A stretch of DNA of 37,030 nt from Acetobacteraceae bacterium (GTDB taxonomy: Bacteria; Pseudomonadota; Alphaproteobacteria; Acetobacterales; Acetobacteraceae), in assembly GCA_003137135.1 (NCBI GenBank), contig PLFB01000060.1, positions 18,372 to 55,401 of the forward strand. The letters run 5' to 3'. The notes beneath the pieces are model-generated. The model saw only the letters and a list, made by a program, of their open reading frames with translations. It was not told the DNA's origin and made no database searches. Shown in pieces: positions 3,151 through 6,966 of this stretch. Position 1 is the first letter of the stretch. The number at the start of each line of letters is the position of its first letter. A program made the translations under genes and the position numbers.

Positions 3151-3328
3151 AGGAAGAAGTTACTTTTTTTGAAAAAAAAGTAACCAAAAAAATTTTTGCT
3201 CCTGGGGGCGTTTGGTCCGGGAGTGCCTTTAAACGGCTCCTATCGAGCCGTTTAAAGGCACTCCCGGTCCAAACGCCCCCAGCTCGCAAAAGTTTTTTGC
3301 GCGCTTTTTTTCAAAAAAGCGCTTCTTA
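3151..3328. repeat. Composite intergenic palindrome (copy A): two terminator-like hairpins flanking a 38-bp inverted repeat
   Basis: Arms 3202-3239 and 3245-3282 match 37/38 with a 5-nt loop; outer hairpins GTTAC-T7..A8-GTAAC (3159-3184) and GCGCTTTTTTTCAAAAAAGCGC (3301-3322); sits between convergent genes. Confidence 0.9.
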
Positions 3329-3330
3329 CT

Positions 3331-3546
3331 TTACTTCTGGATACAAGCGTTTGCCGACCCTGGTCCAGGATACGCCGTGCACTGCACGACATTCCCATCC
3401 GGTTCCACAATCGGGCGCGACACCGCCGGCGGTATGGTTGGCGTGCCGTTTTCCGCCATGTTCATGTGCGCCATCGCCTGAGGCGTTGGCGCATCCTGGC
3501 AGCCGGCCAGCGCCAGTATAGTTGCGACCAGGAAGATTCGTCCCAT
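3331..3546 (-). CDS. Small putative lipoprotein
   Basis: MGRIFLVATILALAGCQDAPTP..: lipobox LAGC; 71 aa when started at the ATG at 3546. Confidence 0.65.
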   Translation of the reverse strand: MGRIFLVATILALAGCQDAPTPQAMAHMNMAENGTPTIPPAVSRPIVEPDGNVVQCTAYPGPGSANACIQK

Positions 3547-3675
3547 GATGCAGTCTCCTCGGTGCGAGATCGCTTTAGACATAGGCAACCCTGCGCTGAT
3601 TTGCAGGGTCCCGCCGGGGCCGGACCCGGTGAAAACCTTGGCAATGCCTCGCGCAACCGCTACCAACCGCTGGCC

Positions 3676-4742: not shown

Positions 4743-5015
4743 CTAAAGACTCTCCAGTCGAATCCCCTCCATCTCCAGAGCCGCCAGCGTTGCCAGCAGA
4801 AACGTGGCCGCTATCGTCCCCCGGCTTAGCTTGTTCGCTATTGATGCCTCAGTCTCCCGCAACCCATGAGCCTCAAGACGCTTTGCCAATTCGGCATAGG
4901 TCACGCCGGCCCGCTTCATTTCGGCTTTGATAAAGCGGCTAGTCTTGTCTGCCAACTCCTTTTCCGTCGCGGCTAGGCCCATAATATCCGCCTTTAACTG
5001 ACAAAAAGATACCAT
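4743..5015 (-). CDS. Passenger gene: DUF6471-like small HTH-like protein
   Basis: TSRFIKAEMKRAGVTYAELAKRLEAHGLRETEASIANKLSRGTIAATFLLATLAALEMEGIRL resembles DUF6471/XRE-like helices; start may be the internal Met (MGLAATEKE). Confidence 0.75.
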   Translation of the reverse strand: MVSFCQLKADIMGLAATEKELADKTSRFIKAEMKRAGVTYAELAKRLEAHGLRETEASIANKLSRGTIAATFLLATLAALEMEGIRLESL

Positions 5016-5031
5016 AAATGATATTTTCTTG

Positions 5032-5088
5032 TTGACAAGAGTATCCTCTTATCATATTAAATATGACAAGTTATTCTCATATTTAATA
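5032..5088 (+). promoter_or_regulatory. Transposase promoter with overlapping inverted-repeat operator candidate
   Basis: TTGACA (5032-5037), 17-nt spacer, TATTAA (5055-5060); perfect 12-bp inverted repeat TATTAAATATGA (5055-5066)/TCATATTTAATA (5077-5088). Confidence 0.55.
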
Positions 5089-5095
5089 GGTTTCC

Positions 5096-6067
5096 ATGTC
5101 TCAACACTTCCTCTTGTCAGCAAAGGCCCGGACGCTCTCCCTAGCGTCCGTCCTGCGTATGACGGACGCGGAAGCCGAGACGACGTTTCGCAACCTGCGC
5201 TGGGCCGCCGGCAAAGCTGTTTGTCCCCATTGCGAGTGCCCCACGGTCTATGAATGCCGCCGTCCGAACGGTGTTCTGCGGTTCCGCTGCAAGGCGTGCC
5301 GGAAGGATTTTAGTATCACCAGCGGCACCCTGTTTGCTCACCACAAGATGCCCTTGCAGACGTACCTGGCGGCCATCGCAATCTTCTGCAACGAGGTCAA
5401 AGGCAAATCCGCCTTGGCCCTCTCCCGTGACTTGGATTGCCAGTATAAGACGGCTTTCGTGCTGGCCCATAAGCTGCGGGAGGCGATGGCCACCGAATTG
5501 AAAGGCCGGACGTTAGGCGGTGTTGGCCGGATTGCCGAGATCGACGGCGGCTATTTCGGCGGCTATGTGAAGCCCGCGAACCACAAAGAAAACCGCCGGG
5601 ACCGCCGCCTGGTCAAGAACCAGAACGGCAAGCGCCAATGCGTCGTCATCATCCGGGAGCGGGACGGTAAGACGCTGCCTGCCGTGTTCCGCTCGGAAGG
5701 CGAGGCTATGGGCTTCATTCGTAACCGCGTCCTGCCCGGCACCGAATTGATGGCGGATGAGAGCGGCGCATGGAATGACCTGCACGGCCGGTACGCCGTC
5801 CGCCGGATCAACCACCAGGAAGCCTATTCGCTGGCCGGAGCCTGCACCAACGGGGCGGAAGAGTTTTTCTCCCGGATGCGCCGCGCCGAGATCGGGCATC
5901 ACCACCATATCGCCGGGGCTTACCTGATCCGGTACGCTCAGGAAGCCTCATGGCGCGAGGATCACCGCCGGGTGGATAATGGGGCGCAAGTACGGGCGGT
6001 GGCTTCCCTGGCGCTGGCAGCGCGGCCTTCGGTGGATTTTTGCGGGTATTGGCAGCGGGCGAATTAA
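5096..6067 (+). CDS. IS1595-family transposase
   Basis: N-terminal zinc ribbon CPHC..CKAC, then ISXO2-like domain EIDGGYFGGYVKP.., MADESGAWNDL.., TNGAEEFFSRMRRAEIGHHHHI. Confidence 0.95.
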   Translation: MSQHFLLSAKARTLSLASVLRMTDAEAETTFRNLRWAAGKAVCPHCECPTVYECRRPNGVLRFRCKACRKDFSITSGTLFAHHKMPLQTYLAAIAIFCNEVKGKSALALSRDLDCQYKTAFVLAHKLREAMATELKGRTLGGVGRIAEIDGGYFGGYVKPANHKENRRDRRLVKNQNGKRQCVVIIRERDGKTLPAVFRSEGEAMGFIRNRVLPGTELMADESGAWNDLHGRYAVRRINHQEAYSLAGACTNGAEEFFSRMRRAEIGHHHHIAGAYLIRYAQEASWREDHRRVDNGAQVRAVASLALAARPSVDFCGYWQRAN

Positions 6068-6072
6068 CAGTT

Positions 6073-6115
6073 TTACAAAGTTTACGGCATAAAACAACAT
6101 ATTAAAACTTTGTAA
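6073..6115. terminator. Possible stem-loop after transposase
   Basis: TTACAAAGTTT (6073-6083) / AAACTTTGTAA (6105-6115), 21-nt loop; AT-rich with no clear U-tract. Confidence 0.3.
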
Positions 6116-6164
6116 TTGCCAAGTTGACACCGACTCTATGTCTATGTGCATATGCGAGCACCAA

Positions 6165-6194
6165 ACAAAAAAGCGGCCACCCGAAAGTGGCCGC
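6165..6194 (-). terminator. Rho-independent terminator for the 38-aa micro-ORF
   Basis: 8-bp GC stem gcggccac/gtggccgc with 6-nt loop, followed on the minus strand by TTTTTTG; 23 nt after the stop at 6217. Confidence 0.8.
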
Positions 6195-6216
6195 AAGTTG
6201 GGAAGTCAGCCCCTTG

Positions 6217-6333
6217 TTACCGCTGGGGGTAGCTACGGAAGTGGGAGATCACCCTCTCCCATTTCCCGTATCTGAAACGGTCATATTGCCGTACAAACAC
6301 AGTTTTTTCGCCTGTTGTTCTGTTAGAACCCAT
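6217..6333 (-). CDS. Passenger micro-ORF, 38 aa basic protein (not in the supplied ORF track)
   Basis: MGSNRTTGEKTVFVRQYDRFRYGKWERVISHFRSYPQR*; AAGGAGGTGAT SD at 6339-6349, 9 nt from AGGAGG to ATG; own terminator downstream. Confidence 0.75.
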   Translation of the reverse strand: MGSNRTTGEKTVFVRQYDRFRYGKWERVISHFRSYPQR

Positions 6334-6522
6334 CTTTAATCACCTCCTTCCCGGAGCCGAGTTGCTCCGGCGCGGTACGAAGTGTCTCGGTCCAGAAGAG
6401 ACGAATCGAAGGCGTATTCTAACCACTCTGCGATGAACTATTTTTTCGAGTCCCGTCAATGGGTTGGCAATGTTTTTATGACAATTTCAATTAATCTTTG
6501 AACTTACTGCGCAAGGGCGCCC

Positions 6523-6966
6523 TCACCCCTCCGCCAAAGGGACCAACCGCCATTTAACTCGTGTTTTAGTGCCGATCTGGTCCACCTTTCCGGCCTTCCT
6601 GAGATCGTGCAGCGAAACCAGTATGCGCCGGGTGAAATCCGCCCGCTGCTTCCGGTTGGTGTCCGGGTCCAGTCCCTTATCCACCATCGCGCTCACCGCC
6701 ACGTCATCCGCCGAGATCAGCCCGCGTTCGCGCATTAACTCATGGCAGCGGCGGCTAATCTCACCCCGCGCGAAATAAGCCGAACGCTTGGGCATCCGGC
6801 CCTTAACCGGGATTTCGTCGGGTTCCAGCCCGTAGAGCTTCAACACCGCGTCGATGTGGTAGAGATCGGCTTGGAGGCGGTCTATCTCCCGCCGTAGGTC
6901 AATGATGCGACCCGCCACGGCGGAGCGCTTTTCTTTGAGGCCGGATATAATGAAGGTGTCGCCCAT
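6523..6966 (-). CDS. Passenger gene: hypothetical protein, N-terminal coiled coil plus winged-helix-like C-terminus
   Basis: Complete ORF inside the element; heptad-like LKEKRSAVAGRIIDLRREIDRLQADLYHIDAVLKLYG; C-terminal RRILVSLHDLRKAGKVDQIGTKTRVKWRL resembles a wHTH. Confidence 0.65.
   Translation of the reverse strand: MGDTFIISGLKEKRSAVAGRIIDLRREIDRLQADLYHIDAVLKLYGLEPDEIPVKGRMPKRSAYFARGEISRRCHELMRERGLISADDVAVSAMVDKGLDPDTNRKQRADFTRRILVSLHDLRKAGKVDQIGTKTRVKWRLVPLAEG

Follow-up and report, generated by a model that had tools for sequence, protein, structure and literature searches.

A widespread family of bacterial micro-proteins with a folded, possibly antisense-controlled mRNA: a type I toxin-antitoxin-like candidate

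The micro-ORF unit

The window, meaning the whole stretch of 37,030 nucleotides of Acetobacteraceae DNA that was analysed, contains a compact minus-strand unit built around an open reading frame of 38 codons. The parts of this unit and the genes that provide its context are as follows.

6351-6370, minus strand: leader hairpin CCGGAGC-AACTCG-GCTCCGG, proximal to the Shine-Dalgarno sequence (SD), read from the sequence
6339-6349, minus strand: SD AAGGAGGTGAT, 11 nt, paired with the upstream leader in the predicted fold
6217-6333, minus strand: micro-ORF MGSNRTTGEKTVFVRQYDRFRYGKWERVISHFRSYPQR, 38 codons, ATG at 6333-6331 and TAA at 6219-6217
6165-6194, minus strand: intrinsic terminator, 9-bp stem (7 G-C) at 6194-6173 followed by TTTTTT
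6320-6424, minus strand: predicted leader/start pairing, GTTAGAATACGCCTTCGATTC... with GGAAGGAGGTGATTAAAGATGGGTTCTAAC, on which the MFE and centroid structures agree
5096-6067, plus strand: IS1595/ISXO2-like transposase (NF033547, PF12762, PF12760), convergent with the micro-ORF; context
4743-5015, minus strand: DUF6471 small protein (PF20075, E 7e-24, and synteny), divergent from the transposase; context
6523-6966, minus strand: 147-aa protein (synteny), upstream of the micro-ORF on the same strand; context

An earlier note had recognized the hairpin, the 11-nt SD, the ATG, the 38 codons and the TAA, and every one of these minus-strand coordinates was verified. The GC hairpin with a T-run that it placed at 6165-6194 is also present, with a stem of 9 bp instead of the 8 bp reported; the terminator pattern taken alone was found once, with 0.9 occurrences expected. 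The micro-ORF is single-copy in the window's own genome.

A widespread micro-protein family

Comparison with other genomes shows that the 38-aa frame is a real, unannotated gene and belongs to a widespread family of bacterial micro-proteins. The frame is more than a chance occurrence, because tblastn and HMM searches recover it open and conserved in at least about 150 other loci. The family was assembled with tblastn searches using the 38 residues, HMM searches and a scan of genome contigs for a back-translated pattern, which together gave at least 154 units from genomes, plasmids and phages (130 once near-duplicates were removed); the viral sample was a phage collection. Relatives found by tblastn in plasmids, phages and genomes share 50-68% identity across about 29 residues, and the positions of the core VxVxxYxRxRxGxWExVxxHxRSxP are invariant or nearly so. 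Frame, start and SD are kept across homologues, and in 27 independent close pairs synonymous changes predominate (pS 0.41, pN 0.07, pooled dN/dS about 0.13). The tblastn and dN/dS checks that had been proposed in the earlier note thus both speak for the gene, the frameshifts and loss of frame conservation that would have counted against it are absent among the homologues, and the view of the unit as a complete, unannotated expression unit for a basic micro-protein is strongly supported.

The hosts are mainly Pseudomonadota, with some Bacteroidota and one contig labelled cyanobacterial, and the distribution is sporadic, over plasmids, phages and islands. In the class sample, eight of 387 genomes (the window's own included) match at E<=0.01, and for four of these the E-value is no higher than 1e-7. 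Two queries matched 119 and 143 plasmid records. In Salmonella phage Oslo (L064:2968-3093) and Escherichia phage phi-8 (L065:2521-2668) the gene lies between cI and N, the part of temperate phage genomes that houses exclusion genes, and the lambdoid-phage copy in Oslo is close to sieB.

Neither Pfam nor NCBIfam has a match to the family. Its sole profile-family match is PHROG 21154, for which no function is recorded; the window protein matches it with an E-value of 1.3e-9 over profile positions 16-46 of 47, and the Oslo type matches it as well. Searched against Rfam at gathering thresholds, the window gave two tRNAs only, and an Rfam E-value search of eight loci returned nothing at the micro-ORF unit. 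No description of the family was found in the open-access literature, which cannot be searched by sequence. The family is missed by gene finders because its members are so small: the majority of the plasmid copies listed have no gene annotated under the match. In the E. coli plasmid pEcFELIX705.3 the deposited annotation has no gene for the conserved micro-ORF (L032:3240-3335), which was missed because a different, overlying frame (3305-3547) was called instead.

The predicted protein

Family proteins have a median length of 36 aa (range 28-55). They are basic, with a median net charge of +6 and a pI of 10.7, and hydrophilic, with a median GRAVY of -0.69 and a maximum of -0.04. AlphaFold2, given 40 natural sequences, places four short strands at residues 11-14, 17-21, 24-28 and 31-34, with a mean pLDDT of 94-96 over residues 11-30; the pTM is only 0.43, a low value that is usual for so short a chain. 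The micro-protein is therefore confidently predicted to be a small, soluble, basic, all-beta meander. A fold search of the PDB with the predicted model gave no match at an E-value below 4, and two hits of the chain sequence to a receptor at E 0.9 were judged to be chance. The earlier suggestion that the protein binds nucleic acid or another protein is neither supported nor excluded by this AlphaFold2 meander, which is without a match among solved structures.

Similar motifs also occur within larger frames, HVRAYTRVRFVKVEHVSAHERSAP in the 365-aa frame of L018 and L047 and TVHVKAYDREGGTEHVRSHTRKPP in the 262-aa frame of L049. From these occurrences, the beta-meander may be a reusable module.

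A folded and probably restrained mRNA

The RNA of the window unit (6445-6160, minus strand) folds more stably than dinucleotide shuffles (z -3.68), and in the predicted fold the SD and the start codon are both paired with the upstream leader. Such pairing would mask both elements and could thereby repress translation.

In homologues, the predicted folds include a further element, a closing stem that encloses the ORF by pairing the transcript's 5' end with sequence just downstream of the stop codon. A closing stem with a score of at least 28 is found in 33% of the 130 units, compared to 2.6% for stems formed between unrelated loci. Most 5' arms fall between about -80 and -120, the 3' arms occupy +6 to +50, and the arm sequences vary by group (GCTACCGCTTGGG, GAAGGCTCT, GACGGTCCGCCGT, TGCAGCTACCACC). 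Sense promoters peak between -145 and -105 (34 of 123 leaders), which makes it likely that transcription starts near the 5' arm. The closing stem carries compensatory changes in the alphaproteobacterial group, where 82% of cells pair and changes on both sides reach 0.206, compared to 0.008-0.094 when the arms are slid, so that the signal is lost on sliding. For the Pseudomonas group taken alone, the covariation test is weak and unconvincing. In the window copy the closing 5'-3' stem was not detected (p 0.69).

A hairpin just 5' of the SD was found in all groups inspected (alphaproteobacterial, Pseudomonas and PDC-M12-type), and the leader hairpin of the window is its counterpart. This hairpin is more than an incidental feature: it is one part of a conserved architecture of structured mRNA, which could not be seen from the sequence on which the earlier note was based. 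Among 43 closed transcripts the mean folding z is -6.1 relative to shuffles, and the unpaired value of the SD is 0.25, compared to 0.36 with shuffled leaders. The coding region also joins predicted stems. By computation, then, the mRNA of the unit appears to be a folded, translationally restrained RNA.

A predicted antisense RNA from the leader

Promoter-like hexamer pairs cluster on the opposite strand of the leader, with the -10 element at about -54 to -67. An antisense promoter ranking in the top 5% of dinucleotide shuffles occurs in 28.5% of leaders, compared to 9.2% for the sense strand; on the antisense strand of the coding sequence the figure is 3.1%. An antisense promoter at -85 to -45 is seen in 26.8% of leaders, against 10.8% in intergenic DNA of the same loci, and 20 of the 40 protein clusters have at least one case. 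Intergenic controls also have fewer antisense terminators (16.6%) than the leaders, where 32.5% have one at -260 to -135, so that promoter and terminator are each enriched 2-2.5-fold in the leader; they co-occur in 14 leaders, slightly above the 10.7 expected if they were independent. Clear cases are L129, L136 and L142, and L034 has a strong antisense promoter.

Since these are consensus scans with supplied hexamer weights (approximate E. coli sigma-70 matrices, a poor guide for GC-rich hosts), they show enrichment and not transcription. An antisense RNA leaving the unit's own leader is likely in the family and is predicted for many relatives. With the same approximate matrices, and the same poor fit to GC-rich hosts, no sigma-70 promoter was found on either strand of the window copy.

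Genomic neighbours and alternative explanations

Genes within 3 kb of the 130 units were surveyed. The commonest neighbour clusters are the AAA_13 defence candidate PDC-S06 (19 loci), IS1595-like transposases (11), resolvases (10) and IrrE-type proteins (9), and on individual plasmids there are also PDC-M12 pairs, AbiD, a multiubiquitin cluster, a kinase and restriction systems of type IIG and type I. Among 140 genes adjacent to the unit, 8 match S06 models, against none of 140 genes more than 2.5 kb away, and capP-like genes number five of 140 near and one of 140 far. Counting matched PADLOC models, not genes, there are 97 near and 37 far, in a set of loci that is partly plasmid-derived by sampling, and defence genes abound on plasmids. 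The partners (S06, M12, AbiD, type IIG and type I restriction, kinase, transposase) are unrelated to each other. In the phylum sample the unit is absent beside 11 of 12 S06 genes, and S06 was not found in the window's own genome (E <= 1e-60). The unit was considered as an obligate partner of S06, or as a component of PDC-S06 (AAA_13, PrrC-like), and this was rejected because of those 11 S06 genes without it. The association between unit and defence genes is a loose one, with no fixed partnership.

The unit often sits at the 3' ends of its neighbours, in either orientation: the downstream gene is convergent in 77 cases versus 46, and the upstream gene is on the same strand in 78 versus 39. Imperfect palindromes at gene 3' ends raised the possibility of an integron attC-like site, which was dropped because, on inspection, the stem sequences differ between loci.

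This siting, the near-versus-far counts of S06 and capP-like genes, the strong mRNA structure and the basic charge of the protein would all fit a dual-function or regulatory RNA-protein unit. The structured mRNA would then be a long-lived regulator or sensor, and the basic beta-protein would bind nucleic acid or a defence protein and tune neighbouring defence genes without being toxic. However, the mostly unaccompanied S06 genes and the unrelated partners argue against a fixed partner; this explanation also leaves the antisense promoter signal unaccounted for. We consider it possible but rather unlikely.

The unit might instead be an ordinary passenger that rides on a mobile element, of IS1595 type or another, has a promoter and terminator of its own and plays an accessory role in transposition or element maintenance. 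The cassette order in the window is DUF6471, IS1595-like transposase, micro-ORF and 147-aa gene, and relatives of all four genes are present in L121 and L156; IS1595-like transposases also account for 6 of the 140 near genes. However, 119 of the 130 units have no such transposase nearby, and most loci carry the unit intact in plasmids or phages free of IS1595-type elements. The IS1595-type setting proposed in the earlier note is accordingly too narrow: of 130 units, 11 have such a transposase within 3 kb and 19 have the S06 defence gene. The description of the unit as lying inside the element is not confirmed: no terminal inverted repeats bracketing transposase and ORF were found in the window, and only weak candidates in relatives. 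Moreover, L193 and L196 have DUF6471, transposase and 147-aa gene in the same order without the micro-ORF. A partnership with the transposase, or a location within its inverted repeats, is thus unsupported, and the passenger explanation is improbable.

The cassette at 4743-6966 (also in L193, L196, L121 and L156) has a transposase with no close second copy in the window's genome and no detectable inverted repeats, and may represent a domesticated transposase system. At about 6375-6470 of the window, a short way upstream of the micro-ORF, are tRNA-like fragments such as TTCGAGTCCCGTC (plus strand). In L196 the space between transposase and 147-aa gene contains a predicted tRNA-Ala(cgc) that is intact (L196:2567-2639). 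From these, the micro-ORF site may be a tRNA integration scar.

Two further explanations can be treated briefly. Attenuation of a downstream gene through translation of a leader peptide would fit the short ORF with hairpin and terminator directly downstream in the window, but the amino-acid sequence is conserved over most of its length and gene order largely refutes the idea, because the next downstream gene is convergent in 77 of 123 cases and there is usually nothing to attenuate; it is very improbable. That the protein conservation merely reflects RNA structure in an untranslated ORF, as participation of the coding region in stems might suggest, is the most improbable reading of all given the mostly synonymous substitutions and the retained frame, start and SD.

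A proposed type I toxin-antitoxin-like module

The explanation that we favour, with about as much doubt as confidence, is that the unit is a module resembling type I toxin-antitoxin systems and encodes a protein of a new family. The structured mRNA, the predicted antisense RNA and the defence neighbours together suggest that it may be a toxin or guard gene under RNA control, of a kind that is new. The wording "type I toxin-antitoxin-like" is used, instead of filing the family as a member, because toxicity and antisense RNA are predictions and the usual hydrophobicity is absent.

Type I toxin genes are small, usually below 60 aa, and the family median falls well within this range. In such systems an antisense RNA base-pairs with the toxin mRNA; here the family as a whole is enriched for antisense promoters and terminators over intergenic DNA, and no antisense promoter was detected in the window copy. 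Type I toxin mRNAs mask the SD by folding, often with 5'-3' pairing; computation finds both in the family, and in the window the SD-masking fold but not the 5'-3' stem. A hydrophobic membrane peptide is usual for type I toxins though not obligatory, and even the most hydrophobic member of this family stays below zero in GRAVY.

According to the toxin-antitoxin-like model, leader pairing would mask the SD in the full-length mRNA, and in many relatives the stem between the 5' end and the post-stop region would help to keep it masked, while the antisense RNA would cover the 5' leader. When the antisense RNA is lost or the mRNA is processed, for example when the mobile element disappears or a phage shuts off the host, the basic beta-meander protein would be translated and would inhibit some cell function. 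Beside defence genes, the unit would serve as an addiction or back-up module. A point against the model is that a recognizable antisense promoter is found in only about a quarter of leaders. The window copy would be a divergent or partly reduced family member, since it retains the ORF, SD hairpin, SD-masking fold and terminator, and closing stem and antisense promoter are undetected.

A more ambitious version can be offered only tentatively: these units could form a widespread and so far undescribed class of antisense-RNA-controlled modules, each with a soluble, basic beta-protein toxin of 30-50 aa, that act as guard or addiction genes beside many unrelated anti-phage systems and fire when a phage or element loss disturbs host transcription.

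Relationship to known systems and significance

In the hok/sok system, the toxin mRNA folds back 5' to 3', an antisense RNA acts on the leader, and the genes are carried on plasmids. The micro-protein family resembles it in the mRNA fold-back, the leader antisense RNA (here predicted) and the plasmid carriage. However, Hok is a membrane protein, whereas the micro-proteins are hydrophilic, basic, predicted to be all-beta and without a Pfam match. To our knowledge, nearly all known type I toxins are unlike a hydrophilic protein of this kind.

A metastable hairpin has been described for hok, and the aapA3/IsoA3 module combines a 30-aa peptide, SD-masking hairpins, a 5'-3' interaction and an antisense RNA (PMC6733600). 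The logic of the aapA/IsoA modules is the same as that proposed here, with a peptide of about 30 aa, SD-masking hairpins, long-distance 5'-3' pairing and, from the opposite strand, an antisense RNA, but AapA is another peptide. The antisense RNA also differs in position: that of aapA3 is described as opposite the small ORF (PMC6733600), whereas the one predicted here would start in the leader and run away from the ORF. Antisense-controlled type I toxins that are not membrane peptides have precedents in SymE/SymR and RalR/RalA (PMC4147584), which the micro-protein family resembles in its non-membrane protein and predicted antisense control; SymE, however, has 113 aa, compared to the family median of 36, and the family has no detectable Pfam homology. 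PHROG 21154 is matched by the window protein, by relatives and by the lambdoid phage type, but the entry records neither function, RNA architecture, nor plasmid and chromosomal copies.

If this is a type I toxin family, the membrane peptides that dominate this group would be joined by a soluble class with a beta fold. The family would also connect antisense-controlled toxins with defence islands in a simple and testable way, and this connection would extend to small plasmids and lambdoid phages, which are easy to work with.
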